A stretch of DNA of 31,802 bases from a virus. This document shows positions 2,505 through 29,979 of this stretch, piece after piece. The DNA lies in IMG/VR virus record IMGVR_UViG_3300046323_000344, positions 1 to 31,802 of that record; one strand, 5' to 3'. The translations under genes and the position numbers were made by a program. The number at the start of each line of letters is the position of its first letter. Position 1 is the stretch's first letter. The notes under the pieces are model-generated. The model searched no databases. It saw only the letters and a program-made list of their open reading frames with translations, and had not been told where the DNA came from.

Positions 2505-2713
2505 GTGAAGACCAACTTAAGGATGTTATAGTCCAAACTGAAACGTTTAAAGCGTTTCCAATTTTCAAACAGTCGCTAATTTTGAAAAGAAAAAATCTAA
2601 CACACTTATTAGACTTATTAGGACAGGCTGATAGATTAGGAATAGGGTATTTAAAGCAAAATCCATATTTAATGAGAAGCGATTTTGAATTGATTAAAGA
2701 GATATTAAAATGA
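2501..2713 (+). CDS. Hypothetical protein (70 aa)
   Basis: Small, mostly helical protein (MSEDQLKDVIVQ...), coupled by ATGA to the HTH gene upstream and overlapping the next gene by 4 nt. No motif recognised. Confidence 0.5.
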   Translation: MSEDQLKDVIVQTETFKAFPIFKQSLILKRKNLTHLLDLLGQADRLGIGYLKQNPYLMRSDFELIKEILK

Positions 2714-3009
2714 AATACAAGCAGATTGAAGTGATTGAAACGCTACGTAAACATCCAACAAGCCCATTATGGAATAAAGTTATAAGTAACTGGACTGATG
2801 AAGATAAAAAAGAATATTTAAAGCTGAAATACGGTATCGTAACAACAAAAAAGAAAAATCTTTCCGATAAAAAAGTAGTTAGAATTTCAGACGGTACAAT
2901 ATACAGTTCGATAAGCGAATGTGCTAAAATGAATAATATTATATACCAAGTCGTATATAATAATGTTATTGGATCAATTGTTAAACCTAATTTTAAATAT
3001 TATGAATAA
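2710..3009 (+). CDS. Small protein with NUMOD1-like DNA-binding segment (99 aa)
   Basis: The N-terminal half is basic and helical. The C-terminal segment KVVRISDGTIYSSISECA followed by KMNNIIYQVVYNNV resembles NUMOD1, the small DNA-binding repeat found at the ends of homing endonucleases. No nuclease motif (GIY-YIG or HNH) is present in the frame, so this may be a stand-alone DNA-binding protein or the remnant of a homing endonuclease. It is coupled to both neighbours by short overlaps. Confidence 0.5.
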   Translation: MKYKQIEVIETLRKHPTSPLWNKVISNWTDEDKKEYLKLKYGIVTTKKKNLSDKKVVRISDGTIYSSISECAKMNNIIYQVVYNNVIGSIVKPNFKYYE

Positions 3010-9529: not shown

Positions 9530-9596
9530 GTACTATGCAGGACTTTTTATTGTTATTATATTTGTAATATCAATTATATTACTTATCTTTGCGTAA
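9522..9596 (+). CDS. Possible single-helix membrane mini-protein (24 aa)
   Basis: ATG at 9522 overlaps the upstream stop and TAA at 9594-9596 overlaps the next ATG (TAATG). The product is one hydrophobic helix (GLFIVIIFVISIILLIF). The same DNA contains the promoter box at 9584-9591, so AT-rich promoter sequence could produce this frame by chance. Confidence 0.25.
   Translation: MIRYYAGLFIVIIFVISIILLIFA
9584..9591 (+). promoter_or_regulatory. Promoter -7 box (TATCTTTG), 4 nt before the TerS ATG
   Basis: TATCTTTG matches TAnnTTTG and is separated from the ATG at 9596 by exactly 4 nt, the same spacing as at 2068-2075 and 10044-10051. Predicts leaderless transcription of the terminase genes. 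Confidence 0.55.
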
Positions 9597-10003
9597 TGCA
9601 TCCATCAAGAATATTTAAGTCACCAGACGAATTAGAACACGCTTGGACTCTTTATAAAGAGAGTCTTAAGAAAGAAGCCCTAGAATGGGTGAAAGTTCAG
9701 TATGTAGGTAAGGAAGGACAAAGAATGGAAGACGCTTTTAAACTACCTTACACAATGGAAGGGTTCAGCGTATATTGTTATAAAAATCACGGGGTTATCA
9801 AACATTATTTTATTAATACTGATAACTATTACAATGACTTCTGTACTATCTGTTCACATATAAAAGAGGAAATTCGACATAATCAAATAATGGGTGGCCT
9901 ATTAGGTATATATAATCCTAGCATAACACAACGATTAAATTCCCTAGTTGAAAAATCGGAAGTAACAGAAAAGAAAGAACAGCCTTTGTTCGGAGATGTT
10001 TAA
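9596..10003 (+). CDS. Terminase small subunit (TerS)
   Basis: 135 aa. Recognises the phage DNA end and loads the large terminase. The sequence follows the TerS type common in Bacteroidota phages: HPSRIFKSPDELEHAWTLYK, WVKVQYVGKEGQR, KLPYTMEGF, a DNYYNDFCTICSHIKEEIR helix and the closing GGLLGIYNPSITQRLNSL, ending in PLFGDV. Its last codons read ATGTTTAA, the same nine bases with which the large subunit gene begins at 10504, which suggests TerS and TerL overlapped before the endonuclease gene was inserted. Confidence 0.8.
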   Translation: MHPSRIFKSPDELEHAWTLYKESLKKEALEWVKVQYVGKEGQRMEDAFKLPYTMEGFSVYCYKNHGVIKHYFINTDNYYNDFCTICSHIKEEIRHNQIMGGLLGIYNPSITQRLNSLVEKSEVTEKKEQPLFGDV

Positions 10004-10043
10004 AATAAAGGTACTTTTTCAATTAGGTATAAGTATTGTTTCG

Positions 10044-10051
10044 TATATTTG
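10044..10051 (+). promoter_or_regulatory. Promoter -7 box (TATATTTG) of the homing endonuclease
   Basis: TATATTTG ends exactly 4 nt before the ATG at 10056. It gives the endonuclease its own, probably leaderless, transcript and also reads into TerL. Confidence 0.6.
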
Positions 10052-10055
10052 TTTT

Positions 10056-10511
10056 ATGGAAAAAATATACTATGTTTACTCGCATTTGAATCCAATAACA
10101 AAAAAAGTTTTTTACATTGGTATTGGTAAAAACGATAGGGTTATAGACGCAGGAGCTAAAAGGAACAAAGCTTGGAAAAAAGAAGTTTATAATGCGGGAG
10201 GTTTTTTATTTGAATTTCTACATATTGGTATTTTTAAATCAGAGGCTTTGGAATTAGAAAGATTTTATATAAAAAAAACAGGGCTAATTAACTTAACTAA
10301 TATTGTTGGTGAAGAAGGTAATAGTACAGCTTTTAAGAAAGGATTAATTCCTTGGAACAAAGGATTAATTGGGTTGCAATCATGTGTATATAAAAAAGTA
10401 ATTATAAACGGTATTACTTATGATTCTGTTGCTGAATGCATTAAATTGTTAAATATAGGAAAATCTACATTTTATAGATGGGTTAAGAAAAATAAAGTTA
10501 TTTATGTTTAA
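10056..10511 (+). CDS. GIY-YIG homing endonuclease with NUMOD domains
   Basis: 151 aa from ATG 10056; an in-frame ATG at 9996 is rejected because the promoter box lies between. GIY-YIG nuclease core: YVY (6-8), FYIG (19-22), R28, the metal-binding Glu in ALELERFYI (E68) and N82. Next comes a NUMOD3-like FKKGLIPWNKGL (93-104) and a C-terminal NUMOD1-like helix-turn-helix (YDSVAECIKLL, then IGKSTFYRW). Such enzymes cut cognate genomes lacking the insert and spread their own gene. Inserted between TerS and TerL and overlapping the TerL start by 8 nt; the TerL coding gap lies 74 nt beyond its stop. Confidence 0.9.
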   Translation: MEKIYYVYSHLNPITKKVFYIGIGKNDRVIDAGAKRNKAWKKEVYNAGGFLFEFLHIGIFKSEALELERFYIKKTGLINLTNIVGEEGNSTAFKKGLIPWNKGLIGLQSCVYKKVIINGITYDSVAECIKLLNIGKSTFYRWVKKNKVIYV

Positions 10512-11737
10512 ATATACAACTGCAATTAAAAAACTTCGTGCGATGACTGCACGTAAAAAAGTAATACAAGGCGGAACATCCGCTGGGCAATAGCCCCCTT
10601 ATTTAGTTAAGGGGGCAATTTGGAAAAACCTTTGGAATACTACCTATACTAATTGATAAAGCTACTAAAACTTCAAAGCTTAAAATTACTATTGTAGCCG
10701 AAACGTTACCTGCAGTCAAAGAGGGTGCATTGGATATATTTAAAACCGTAATGCAAGATACAGGGCGATGGATTGAAAACAATTGGAATGCATCCAGCTT
10801 ATCATATAAGTTTTGTAATGATAGTAGAATCCAATTCAAATCATTTGATACCGTAGGTAAAGCCAAGTCAAGTGGTAAGAGAGATATTCTTTTCTTAAAC
10901 GAGGCCAATCATATTCCATTCGATATTGCTGATGCTTTAATGATTAGATCCAAAGAAACATGGATTGATTTTAATCCTGACAATGAATTTTGGGTTCATA
11001 CTGAAACACTCCAAGAACCTAATAGTGAGTTTCTATTACTTACGTACCACGATAATGAAGGATTACCACCTGAAACCTTAGAAGACCTCTTAATTAAACA
11101 AACAAAAGCTTTTTTTGATGTTGATAAAGATTGGAATGACGCTAATAACATAAAAAATAGTTATTGGGCTAATTGGTGTTATGTATATATCTTAGGCGAG
11201 ATAGGGAACTTGGAAGGCGTAATTTTTAATAATTGGAAAATAATAGATAACATCCCACCTGAGGCAAGACTTCTTGGGTATGGAGTTGACTTTGGTTATA
11301 CCAACGACCCTACTGCAATTGTTGAGATATATAAGTATAACGACACCCGTATATTGAACGAAATTTGCTATCAAAAAGGATTATCAAATAAACAAATAGC
11401 GGATAAAATACCAACGTTAAACCCAGCCTATTGCGATAGTGCCGAACCTAAGTCAATAGCAGAGTTGCAGGACTTAGGAATAAATGCATATCCAGTGCGT
11501 AAAGGTTCCGATAGTATTAACTTTGGTATTCAATTAATGCAAGAACAAAACTATTTAGTTACCGAAAATTCAAGGAATTTAATTAATGAGCTTAGAAAAT
11601 ATGCATGGGCAGTTGATAGAAAAACAGGATTGAAAACAAATAAACCTATCGAAACATGGAACCATATTTTAGACGCCACACGCTATCACGAAATGGAGTC
11701 AATAGGGTATGAAAATAATTCATTATGCGTAAAATAA
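10504..11737 (+). CDS. terL: Terminase large subunit with an interrupted reading frame
   Basis: Packaging ATPase/nuclease in two frames. The first (10504-10587) encodes 28 residues ending QGGTSAG; after one more codon (CAA) it meets TAG at 10591. The second, in frame with 10622, starts GGA-AAA-ACC (GKTFGILPILID) and runs to TAA at 11735-11737. Joining GGG (10585) to the codon after GGA (10622) gives 398 aa with an intact Walker A GGTSAGKT (23-30), Walker B ILFLNEA (E121) and nuclease aspartates in GVDFGYTND (D250), CDSAEPK (D299) and LDATRY (D378). No other lesion is seen. The internal ATG at 10730 cannot be the true start, since it would omit the P-loop. Decoding probably needs translational bypass; loss of function is the alternative. 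Confidence 0.85.
10585..10624 (+). other. Coding gap: putative translational bypass element in terL
   Basis: GGG (10585-10587) and GGA (10622-10624), both Gly codons one tRNA could read, flank 34 nt with a stop in every frame (TAG 10591, TAG 10604, TAA 10608). The gap is nearly all hairpin: GCCCCCTTA (10593-10601) pairs with TAAGGGGGC (10608-10616), loop TTTAGT; past an A-A mismatch AAT (10589-10591) pairs with ATT (10618-10620), bringing the Gly codons together. GGGCAAT is directly repeated at 10585-10591 and 10613-10619. A CAA-to-CAA jump (10588 to 10616) is also in frame but would insert Gln-Phe-Gly into the P-loop. Gap and hairpin are seen; bypass is inferred. Confidence 0.65.
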
Positions 11738-24059: not shown

Positions 24060-26810
24060 ATGGGTAAAGCAATATTTGACAAAGGAATTAAGATAACAAA
24101 CGGGCAGGACGTTACAACTGCCCCAACATTTTTAACTGCAACAAGCACCAACGGGACAATTGAGAAAACAGAGCCGTTGCAATTTGCAGGTAATTCAGCG
24201 GGTGCAATATCGGGTTTTGAAATTACGAACAACGGTAACGGAACTGTTAATATAGCGACAGGAATAGCGATATTAAGAAGTGCGAATAATTCTACTTCAC
24301 CATTGGTGAAATATACTATTTCAGCGCAAACAAACATTAGCTTAACCGATAACGCTAACAACTTTTTATTAGTTAATTATAACGGTGGAACGCCTAATAT
24401 ATTGGTTACTACTAATCCAAACGATATAAACACTACTACTAATTCAATCATATACGTAGTTTCAAGGGTAGCAAACACCTTAGATTATATTGCTTTAATT
24501 GGACAAAATGTAGATGCAAATGCAAAGTTAAGACGTAGATTCTTAAATAGCGAGGGACTTACAAGGTCACAAGGAGCTATATTAACAACGTCTAACCGTA
24601 ACCTATTAGTTACAGTAGGATTATTCTATTCGGGACTTATTGAGGTTACAACACCCGCCTTTGACACATCGGGCGCAGATACGTTTACACAAGCATATAT
24701 AAATGGTACTTGGGTACGTACTGCAGGACTTTCTCAGATTAATAACACACAATATAGCCTAGCAGGGACGTTAACAACATTGCCAAACAATAGTTATAGA
24801 GTTGACTACGTATATATTTTAGCGGACAATCCAAGTAAGTTATATACTATTTTAGGAGATGCACATTATAATAACTTAAGTGATGCGAGATTATCGCCCG
24901 TTCCTGCAAGTTTGCCAACTGAATTGCAGTATCTTGGCGCAAGAGTAGGGCGTGTTATAATTCAGAAAAACGCTTCGACAATGGAAGTTTCAAGTGAATT
25001 TACAACGATATATGCATCAGCAACAGCAACGTTACACAATGACTTAGGTGGTTTAAACGTAGGTGATTATCAGCACTTAACCGTTGCAGAAAAATCTACA
25101 ATATTCGACCCTAAAACAATAAAAATAGCTTTTTTAGGTGACTCAATTACTGCGGGTTCAGGTTCTACAGGGGGAGCTACAAGTTACGCAGATATTTTAA
25201 ATAATTTATTTTCTTTTCAAACATATACTAAGCTAGGGGTTAGTAGCGCAACAGCAAAACCGACTACCCCAAGACCTCAACTTAGTACTCAAGTGAGCGC
25301 AATTCCTGTTGGGACTAATTTTATCACAGTAATGATTGGGATAAATGATTGGTCAGAAAATACAGTAATCGGAGATGTGAATGCTGTATTAGCAAAAAGT
25401 TACGGAGCTTTAGACCAAAATCTATCCTTTTCTGAAGCATTCAGATACAACATGGAAACTATAAAAAATAATTTTCCTGATGCACAAATAAGAGTTATTT
25501 TACCAATAAAACACGGGTCAGGATGGGTAAGAGATTTAGACTTTAAATTCTATATTGATGCAGAAATACAAATTAGTAATTTTTTATCTATTCCTGTAAT
25601 AAATGCATACGATGCTTCTTTATTAGCAAAAAACTCTCCTTATGTTCCTGATGGCATACACCCAAATGATATAGGTTACAATATGTTATCAGAAGTTGTA
25701 AAAAAAGGTATAATAGACAATAAAACAACTAAGCAAGACAATTCATTTTACAACTTATTAGTAGGTTCTAGTGTAAAAAATGGTTCTACGGATGTTGTTC
25801 AAATTACAGGTGGGGGGTCTACAACGGGTAGATTTTCAATAGGTAGTTTATATACAAGTGGTAGGTTCACACAAATAACACCATCAATTATAGGGGGCAC
25901 GCCTAACATACAAGCGTATTTACAAGGCACAGGAACGGATAGATTAAGTTTACAAGGACTTGGAGGAAACCTATTGGTAGGCAGTCTTTCAGATAACGGT
26001 TCAGGTGACAAATTGCAAATTAATGGAGGAATTTCATCTAGTAGTAGATTTTCAATAGGTGGTTTTTCGGCAGGTGGTAGATTTATGCAATTCACACCAT
26101 CATTAACTAGTGATGCACCTAATATTCAAGGGTATAACACAGGTTTTGGACAGGATTATATAAGTTTACAAGGACTTGGTGGTAAATTATTTATAGGCAG
26201 TCTTTCAGATAACGGTTCAGGGGCTGATGTTCAGATTAATGGTTCTATATATACAACATCACCTACCACAAGCGCAGGAGGTTACGACATTCTTACAAGG
26301 AATACAAGTACAGGACAAGTTGAGAAAGTGGCTAGTAGTGGATTGACAAATAATGTACTATCTAATACTACAAGAATAACGCATACAGGTACTACATCAT
26401 ATACCAATCTTGTGACTATTAATATACCAGCAAATTTTATTACAGAAGGTGGTTTATATAATATAATTGTAGGTGCATCCAGAGGCGGTGCAAATGCAAC
26501 AGGAAGTGCAACTTTAAATGCTTCTTTTGTTTCAAATACAGACCAAAATGACTTTATAAGAGGCGTGCAAATAGGGACTGGAAATAATTTTAAAGCAAAT
26601 GTAATTCGTACAGTCGTTTTCAGAAGTGGAAACAGAGAGATGTTTAGTAATTCAGGCGGATTTTACTCAGATTATAGCTCAATACAAACTAATGCTACAT
26701 CGTCTTTTGATATAACTGTATCTAATAATCTATATGTAGGGATTATTTTGGCAAATGCATCAGATATTGCTTATTTAGATTATGTGTCAATTGTAAAAAT
26801 ATCACAATAA
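24060..26810 (+). CDS. Tail fibre / receptor-binding protein with SGNH hydrolase domain
   Basis: 916 aa. A beta-rich N-terminal part (1-350) carries a second stalk motif (QHLTVAEKSTI), then an SGNH/GDSL hydrolase: block I IAFLGDSIT (nucleophile S362), block III IGINDW (N429) and block V PDGIHPND (D531, H534). The C-terminal part holds two copies of a 72-residue repeat (SLQGLGG, GSLSDNGSG, INGGIS or INGSIY, RFSIGG) and a beta tip. SGNH domains on fibres usually remove acetyl groups from surface glycans, so it probably modifies or opens the host envelope. Confidence 0.85.
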   Translation: MGKAIFDKGIKITNGQDVTTAPTFLTATSTNGTIEKTEPLQFAGNSAGAISGFEITNNGNGTVNIATGIAILRSANNSTSPLVKYTISAQTNISLTDNANNFLLVNYNGGTPNILVTTNPNDINTTTNSIIYVVSRVANTLDYIALIGQNVDANAKLRRRFLNSEGLTRSQGAILTTSNRNLLVTVGLFYSGLIEVTTPAFDTSGADTFTQAYINGTWVRTAGLSQINNTQYSLAGTLTTLPNNSYRVDYVYILADNPSKLYTILGDAHYNNLSDARLSPVPASLPTELQYLGARVGRVIIQKNASTMEVSSEFTTIYASATATLHNDLGGLNVGDYQHLTVAEKSTIFDPKTIKIAFLGDSITAGSGSTGGATSYADILNNLFSFQTYTKLGVSSATAKPTTPRPQLSTQVSAIPVGTNFITVMIGINDWSENTVIGDVNAVLAKSYGALDQNLSFSEAFRYNMETIKNNFPDAQIRVILPIKHGSGWVRDLDFKFYIDAEIQISNFLSIPVINAYDASLLAKNSPYVPDGIHPNDIGYNMLSEVVKKGIIDNKTTKQDNSFYNLLVGSSVKNGSTDVVQITGGGSTTGRFSIGSLYTSGRFTQITPSIIGGTPNIQAYLQGTGTDRLSLQGLGGNLLVGSLSDNGSGDKLQINGGISSSSRFSIGGFSAGGRFMQFTPSLTSDAPNIQGYNTGFGQDYISLQGLGGKLFIGSLSDNGSGADVQINGSIYTTSPTTSAGGYDILTRNTSTGQVEKVASSGLTNNVLSNTTRITHTGTTSYTNLVTINIPANFITEGGLYNIIVGASRGGANATGSATLNASFVSNTDQNDFIRGVQIGTGNNFKANVIRTVVFRSGNREMFSNSGGFYSDYSSIQTNATSSFDITVSNNLYVGIILANASDIAYLDYVSIVKISQ
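25944..26221 (+). repeat. Internal DNA repeat in the fibre gene, 216-nt period
   Basis: AAGTTTACAAGGACTTGG occurs near 25946 and 26162, and GGCAGTCTTTCAGATAACGG near 25980 and 26196; both are 216 nt (72 codons) apart. The near-identity at DNA level indicates recent duplication or exchange in the fibre. Confidence 0.75.
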
Positions 26811-29646: not shown

Positions 29647-29979
29647 ATGGCAATTACACAGATAGCCGATAGACAACTATACACAACCCCGTCAGGTGGC
29701 GGGGTTTCTATAATTAGTGCAAATGCAATTATTGATTTTGGTAACGAAAATAATAGTGCGTTTATAACAATTAGCAACGCAGTTCTGACAAATTCAAACA
29801 TATTAGGATATTCTTTTATTCCGCAAGATACTGCTGAAACATCGTTAGAAGATTTTAGTCTTAACGGGGTTTCTTTTAGTATTCAGAACATAATTGACAA
29901 TGTAAGCTTTGATATTGTTGGAACGGCAGTAAACGAGGCAAGTGGTAATTATACCGTAAAATATTTAATAACTAAATAA
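29647..29979 (+). CDS. Small fibre-region structural protein (110 aa)
   Basis: Beta-rich protein with Asn/Ser/Thr content (FITISNAVLTNSNILGYSF); starts MAITQIADRQLYTTPSGGG, like other fibre-associated proteins of the cluster. Function not recognised. Confidence 0.5.
   Translation: MAITQIADRQLYTTPSGGGVSIISANAIIDFGNENNSAFITISNAVLTNSNILGYSFIPQDTAETSLEDFSLNGVSFSIQNIIDNVSFDIVGTAVNEASGNYTVKYLITK

Follow-up and report, generated by a model that had tools for sequence, protein, structure and literature searches.

Established natural bypassing comprises phage T4 gene 60 and the byps of yeast mitochondria, with few other cases beyond candidates (PMC5009743). The T4 gene 60 insert has been proposed to interrupt an endonuclease target (PMC5009743), and sliding of T4 type is highly processive within ~56 nt on gene 60 constructs (PMC11194080). 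In Magnusiomyces capitatus, byps are found in 12 mitochondrial genes as many short skipped inserts, several with imperfect codon matches, and are read by relaxed mitoribosomes in a manner said to be context-independent (PMC5009743). Candidates include the terminase gene of Streptomyces phage Hau3, with a proposed bypass of a much shorter gap tied to a UUA codon and no hairpin or homing endonuclease gene (HEG) cassette described in the review, and a 29-nt hop in the adhesin gene plaA of Prevotella loescheii, reported without follow-up and with no HEG or hairpin family described (PMC5009743). For cluster O mycobacteriophages, the literature mentions a possible bypass next to an inserted HNH gene. 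The free-standing HEGs of the T4 seg/mob group, which home without an intron, lie beside the genes they target, at conserved codons, and co-convert the flanks; their protected alleles need not break the reading frame (PMC2988022).

The window analysed here, one IMG/VR virus record of 31,802 bases, carries a large terminase gene (terL) whose Walker A motif, GGTSAG^KT, is divided by a 37-nt hairpin gap (Table 1). Read directly from the letters, terL starts with ATG at 10504 and runs through GGC GGA ACA TCC GCT GGG (10570-10587), after which CAA (10588-10590) and TAG (10591-10593) close the zero frame two codons past GGG. The reading is open again from GGA at 10622-10624, followed by AAA ACC TTT (GKTFGILPILID...), to the stop at 11735-11737. 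Further stops (TAG 10604, TAA 10608) shut 10588-10624 in all three frames, and a scan of the window gap found no ATG, GTG or TTG after the last in-frame stop and before GKT. Skipping 37 nt gives MFKYTTAIKKLRAMTARKKVIQGGTSAGKTFGIL..., which resembles uninterrupted relatives, and the junction peptide predicted for bypassed TerL is VIQGGTSAGKTFG. An earlier note, made from the sequence alone, had reported this halt and resumption, the exact GGTSAGKT obtained on skipping 37 nt and the closure of every frame in the gap, and the letters bear it out on each point. It had also seen that a hairpin fills almost the whole gap: the stem of SL2 (GCCCCCTTA/TAAGGGGGC) pairs 10593-10601 with 10608-10616 in 9 bp around the loop TTTAGT, and the gap folds at -18.2 kcal/mol; among 300 versions shuffled by mononucleotide, no fold was as good.

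No second terL copy was found in the window; a query made of an intact relative matched two pieces, at this locus only. Downstream of the gap, terL part 2 matched Pfam Terminase_3C (E 4e-14) and the PHROG terL family (E 2e-28) and was 80% identical to the gene of contig L002. In part 1, ~14 of 19 synonymous and 10 of 62 nonsynonymous sites differed from the nearest intact relative. The HEG that the earlier note had placed beside terL lies directly upstream, in an ORF open from 9996 (9996-10511) whose likely start is the ATG at 10056 and whose stop overlaps the terL start. Its product matched Pfam GIY-YIG weakly (E 0.019), was 68% identical to a HEG in the same position of contig L084, and had no match among INPHARED phages.

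Table 1. Features of the split terL locus, in window coordinates.
Feature	Position	Strand	Basis
Terminase small subunit, gene before the cassette	9596..10003	+	PHROG 606 E 8e-9; Pfam GP3_package E 4e-6, below cut-off
Mobile cassette, inferred extent: HEG, recoded terL 5′ end and hairpin	10004..10624	+	
GIY-YIG homing endonuclease, 151 aa	10056..10511	+	phrog_314 homing endonuclease E 5.9e-10
terL part 1, codons 1-28, MFKYTTAIKKLRAMTARKKVIQGGTSAG; last codon is the take-off Gly	10504..10587	+	sequence; relatives
SL1, predicted 5′ stem-loop over the GGTSA codons (GGCGG/CCGCT)	10570..10584	+	RNA fold
Take-off codon GGG (Gly)	10585..10587	+	sequence; comparison of inserts
37-nt coding gap (CAA...GGA); landing codon is its last 3 bases	10588..10624	+	sequence
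5-nt spacer CAATA, take-off codon to hairpin	10588..10592	+	comparison of inserts
In-frame TAG, second codon past take-off	10591..10593	+	sequence
Gap hairpin SL2, GCCCCCTTA / TTTAGT / TAAGGGGGC, 9 bp	10593..10616	+	fold; covariation in homologues
3′ spacer AATTT	10617..10621	+	comparison of inserts
Landing codon GGA (Gly)	10622..10624	+	sequence; comparison of inserts
terL part 2, K29 (Walker A Lys) to stop; remaining ATPase and nuclease domain	10625..11737	+	

Relatives of terL part 2 in IMG/VR mostly carried an uninterrupted GGTSAGKT, and several had a different insert in the same place. Two DNA-pattern scans, the second of which left out nine non-terminase chance matches, together with further protein-based scans of IMG/VR brought the dereplicated terL genes that carry an insert to 88, and 49 of their inserts are distinct. 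The comparison with gapless relatives proposed in the earlier note could be drawn against 193 uninterrupted genes, and the inserts all sit at the same point, the Ala/Gly codons of Walker A that precede KT. Gap lengths range from 32 to 44 nt and leave 0, 1 and 2 modulo 3 in 27, 12 and 10 inserts; since all three residues occur, no fixed frameshift explains the inserts. Their layout runs from a take-off codon through a spacer, a C-rich arm, a loop, a G-rich arm and a second spacer to a landing codon and then GKT. The first spacer, which often ends in TA, measures 5 nt in 35 of the 49 and 6 nt in 12; the hairpin has 8-12 bp, with one exception of 6, and lies 1-8 nt from the landing codon. The leader before the gap is 27-28 codons long and conserved as in intact TerL.

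Two registers were found. In the Ala register the gap follows the Ala codon and precedes GKT (GCN ... GCN/GTN GGN AAR), and in the Gly register, to which the window belongs, one codon later (GGN ... GGN AAR). Because the hairpin keeps its spacing in both, the codon before the gap appears to be a functional take-off codon. In every one of the 49 inserts the landing codon can pair with the take-off tRNA if G.U is allowed at codon position 2. Take-off and landing codons are synonymous in 39; the other 10 land on GTA or GTT, so that the Ala register goes from GCN to GCN or GTA/GTT, and the Gly register from GGN to GGN. The Gly take-off and landing codons named in the earlier note therefore hold for the window and are incomplete for the family, in which Ala-to-Ala jumps occur as well. 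An initial rule of a final A in every landing codon was rejected, as GCT, GCG, GTT and GGT landings were found. The landing frame contains a stop in 40 of the 49 inserts and is open in 9, and the zero-frame stop is the first codon after take-off in 4, the second in 25, later in others and absent in one. In the L414-L488 families the gaps measure 32 and 35 nt; these inserts come from higher-GC phages, make exact GGA-to-GGA jumps in which only 1 nt separates the hairpin from the landing codon, and are closest to the T4 codon pair. In L063 (2971 onward) and L083, the 3′ part of the 42-nt inserts shares the frame of GKT and encodes GDDNAGKT or GGDNAGKT; the Walker-A-like stretch of L063 is preceded by an ATG and is possibly an alternative start or a coincidence.

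DNA searches of INPHARED phages returned no cassette homologue, and the best terL protein match there was 50% identical; matches in Pseudoalteromonas B8b and Rhodobacter phages look like chance, and the seven matches from a scan of genome contigs with the same pattern were due to chance. Outside terL, the studied loci contained no similar hairpins other than the same inserts read from the opposite strand and two exceptions, one terminator-like and one an in-frame GC hairpin. The window has a GC-rich hairpin, CCCCGTCAGGTGGCGGGG, at 29684-29706 inside an ORF (29647-29979), apparently as in-frame coding sequence.

SL2 covaries across the inserts. In an ungapped alignment of the 42-nt class (12 rows), 99% of cells pair, and 18 are changed on both sides, against a shuffled mean of 5.7, with none of 500 shuffles as high; the covariation score is 0.42, compared with 0.10 or less for slid positions of the helix. 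In the tetraloop class (15 rows), 9 of 11 pairs are changed on both sides and 35 cells are double-changed against 11.5 after shuffling (again 0 of 500 as high), with a score of 0.63 compared with at most 0.22. The shuffle control ignores relatedness and the slid control allows for it, the structure itself having been chosen on these sequences. Tetraloops occur in 19 inserts (GCAA, GUAA or GAAA in 17, UAAC in 2), G.U pairs in 42, the sense strand folds better than the antisense in 47 of the 49, and the orientation is constant, C arm first and G arm second. Loops, G.U pairs, strand bias and fixed orientation point to an RNA function in the mRNA sense. The G-rich arm upstream of the AATTT spacer could in addition act as a Shine-Dalgarno-like element.

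Codon usage before the gap differs as well. GGY encodes the first Gly in 100% of the distinct alleles with an insert versus 55% of intact ones, and TCY encodes Ser in 94% versus 21%, a bias that makes a small upstream stem, SL1, possible. Its core of four pairs can form in 46 of 49 insert alleles versus 20 of 175 intact alleles, a difference that descent of the cassette could partly explain, and individual folds gave a clear SL1 in 3 of 5 sequences tried.

The linkage to endonucleases extends across the relatives. Among alleles with enough flank, a HEG lies directly upstream of terL in 25 of 81 with the insert compared with 5 of 173 intact (odds ratio 15, Fisher p 8e-10, uncorrected for relatedness). 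These HEGs are of GIY-YIG type in the window, L084, L458 and L479 and of HNH/NUMOD4 type in L054, L083, L090, L201, L341, L414 and others. Closely related pairs delimit what has moved. L084 and L112 share 94% identity on either side of a block that begins just before the terL start and ends with the last base of the insert, and within this block they differ by the HEG and by a terL 5′ end that has diverged strongly; L201/L199 and L054/L053 have the same border pattern. Without a HEG, L030 and L045 are 99.9% identical past the insert and ~80% over the terL 5′ end. Much of the divergence in the first 27 terL codons is synonymous. This border pattern indicates that the moving unit consists of the HEG, when present, the recoded terL 5′ end and the hairpin; in the window, which has no near-identical empty relative, the cassette borders were drawn by analogy with L084 and L112. 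On the terL tree, insert presence changes 17-21 times in a sampling directed at inserts, and the distribution is patchy.

Among the five intact alleles with an upstream HEG, L184, L288 and L315 have AGT and not TCN as the Walker A Ser codon, and L330 has TAASKT. Either change may be a second way to evade cleavage by the endonuclease. Elsewhere in the window, a small ORF at 2710-3009 has a NUMOD1-like C-terminal half (ISDGTIYSSISECAKMNN...) and is possibly the remnant of another homing endonuclease.

Purifying selection on both halves of terL is strong. The pN/pS of part 2 is 0.07 among insert-bearing genes versus 0.11 among intact genes, and that of part 1, pooled over comparisons with the nearest intact relative, is 0.22. 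Such low values indicate that both halves are kept as protein in insert-carrying phages.

The explanation that we consider probable from these sequence comparisons is translational bypassing of a mobile HEG cassette, akin to T4 gene 60/mobA and yet a separate family. The number of distinct inserts, their covariation, gap lengths in all residues modulo 3, pairable codons, selection on both halves and transfer of the HEG and cassette support it; they lead us to infer that the gap is bypassed, what SL1 and SL2 do, which site the endonuclease targets and that the insert confers immunity. The cassette would act on the P-loop codons of terL, which are conserved; in the copy that belongs to the cassette, the hairpin insert interrupts this target and would block self-cleavage, and terL would stay functional if ribosomes skip the insert. 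The presence of the insert would be explained because it interrupts the HEG's conserved target codons. In the window, the P site of a ribosome that has reached codon 28, GGG, would hold peptidyl-tRNA-Gly; SL2, beginning 5 nt downstream, would hinder the A site and the peptidyl-tRNA would release. The ribosome might then slide across 37 nt, aided by SL1 re-forming behind it, until the anticodon re-paired with GGA 10622 and decoding restarted at AAA to give GGTSAGKT. All gaps, at 32-44 nt, are shorter than the ~56-nt processive range of T4 (PMC11194080). Several features count against the proposal: the ten GTA/GTT landings are non-synonymous and pair through G.U only, the adjacent A-site stop of T4 is absent, the 27-28-codon leader has no room for a nascent-peptide signal of T4 type, and the landing frame is open in nine inserts. 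Matched take-off and landing codons could also be partly inherited from the ancestral terL sequence.

The earlier note had advanced a candidate bypass resembling that of T4 gene 60. Comparative data favour the bypass, and the resemblance is partial, in that the stop is not adjacent to take-off (GGG CAA TAG) and its position is inconstant. With T4 gene 60 and mobA (PMC5009743, PMC11194080, PMC2988022) the terL inserts share a stop-containing gap, pairable codons, hairpins, an essential phage gene, an adjoining HEG and an insert that plausibly immunises against the endonuclease. They differ in having gaps of 32-44 nt in the terminase P-loop and not one of 50 nt in a topoisomerase gene, Ala or Gly jumps, no constant stop directly after take-off, one strong hairpin, mostly 5 nt from take-off and in many cases capped by a GNRA loop, endonucleases of GIY-YIG or HNH type, and dozens of divergent variants. 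In T4, moreover, the nascent-peptide signal lies ~25-30 aa before take-off (PMC5009743), and the TerL leader is only 27-28 aa long. Because stop position, leader room and Ala jumps differ, we file the terL inserts apart from the gene 60 element. The byps of Magnusiomyces are similarly numerous, short and imperfectly matched, whereas the terL inserts occupy one site in phage terL with a conserved context and HEG linkage. Hau3 is alike in the kind of gene, plaA in coming from Bacteroidota, possibly the host phylum here, and seg/mob in the behaviour of the HEG, although the terL insert, unlike the protected alleles of seg/mob, splits its target and needs recoding. No description of this family was found in the largely non-subscription literature covered, and the inserts are likely a new natural family of T4-like "ribosome hop".

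RNA splicing is the main rival to bypassing: the 32-44 nt element would be a minimal intron, self-acting or removed with the help of protein, and mobilised by the endonuclease. Precise removal regardless of length modulo 3, a covarying RNA hairpin and a HEG association with an interrupted target site, as is typical of introns, would all fit such an element. No Rfam family, group I included, matches the window, however, in line with the earlier remark that 37 nt is unlike a group I intron, and there is no constant exon-intron boundary, Ala-type inserts ending in GCA or GTA before GGA and Gly-type ones in TTT before GGA. As these boundaries vary while one codon-pairing rule covers all 49 inserts, we judge splicing unlikely; we know of no self-splicing intron nearly as small as these elements. 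Were it to operate, no known mobile intron would be smaller than this lone covarying hairpin, which homing endonucleases would spread and some new mechanism would cut precisely out of phage mRNA. A group I or II intron was rejected on the length of 37 nt and the lack of a catalytic core and of an Rfam match in the window, and an intein, an in-frame protein insert, on the stops in all frames of the gap.

It is very unlikely that frameshifting, stop readthrough or internal initiation accounts for the family, with the insert partly translated or terL restarting inside it. Nine inserts have an open landing frame, the 40-nt class for instance through one +1 shift, and in six a start codon shares the frame of GKT, as in L063, where the ATG would give MKLVVGDDNAGKT; but the landing frame is stopped in 40 inserts, 43 have no such start, and the window has neither an open frame nor an in-frame start before GKT. 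Purifying selection on part 1 as protein also speaks against this group of readings, and residues translated from an insert would fall inside the P-loop. A terminase-null or switch state, in which the insert disables or regulates terL and another copy or DNA-level excision supplies the function, we hold to be highly improbable. Near-identical intact and interrupted alleles do coexist in nature (L030/L045, L201/L199), yet these pairs differ in terL codons 1-27 too and so represent cassette replacements and not simple excisions, part 2 is constrained as strongly in insert as in intact alleles, and the window has a single terL. The metagenomic source and the short hairpin might suggest an assembly artefact or a chance palindrome, a reading to which we give practically no weight and which the comparative data have refuted already. 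The 88 alleles come from many separate metagenome assemblies and are therefore not an assembly error; a second contig, L082, has the window's own insert, and since 48 other covarying inserts occupy the same site in other phages, chance is excluded too.

If bypassing is indeed at work, 49 natural variants at one site of an essential gene expose its rules through evolution, and the parts played by codon pairing, spacer, hairpin and gap length could be read from the family and then probed in small reporters. The combination of a HEG with bypassing would then be a recurring route for a selfish element into an essential gene, and split phage terminases may be wrongly called broken. Apart from terL, the window encodes a large tail-fibre-like protein (24060-26810) in which several structural PHROGs match residues ~350-550 only, which suggests a mosaic fibre whose middle forms a domain of its own.
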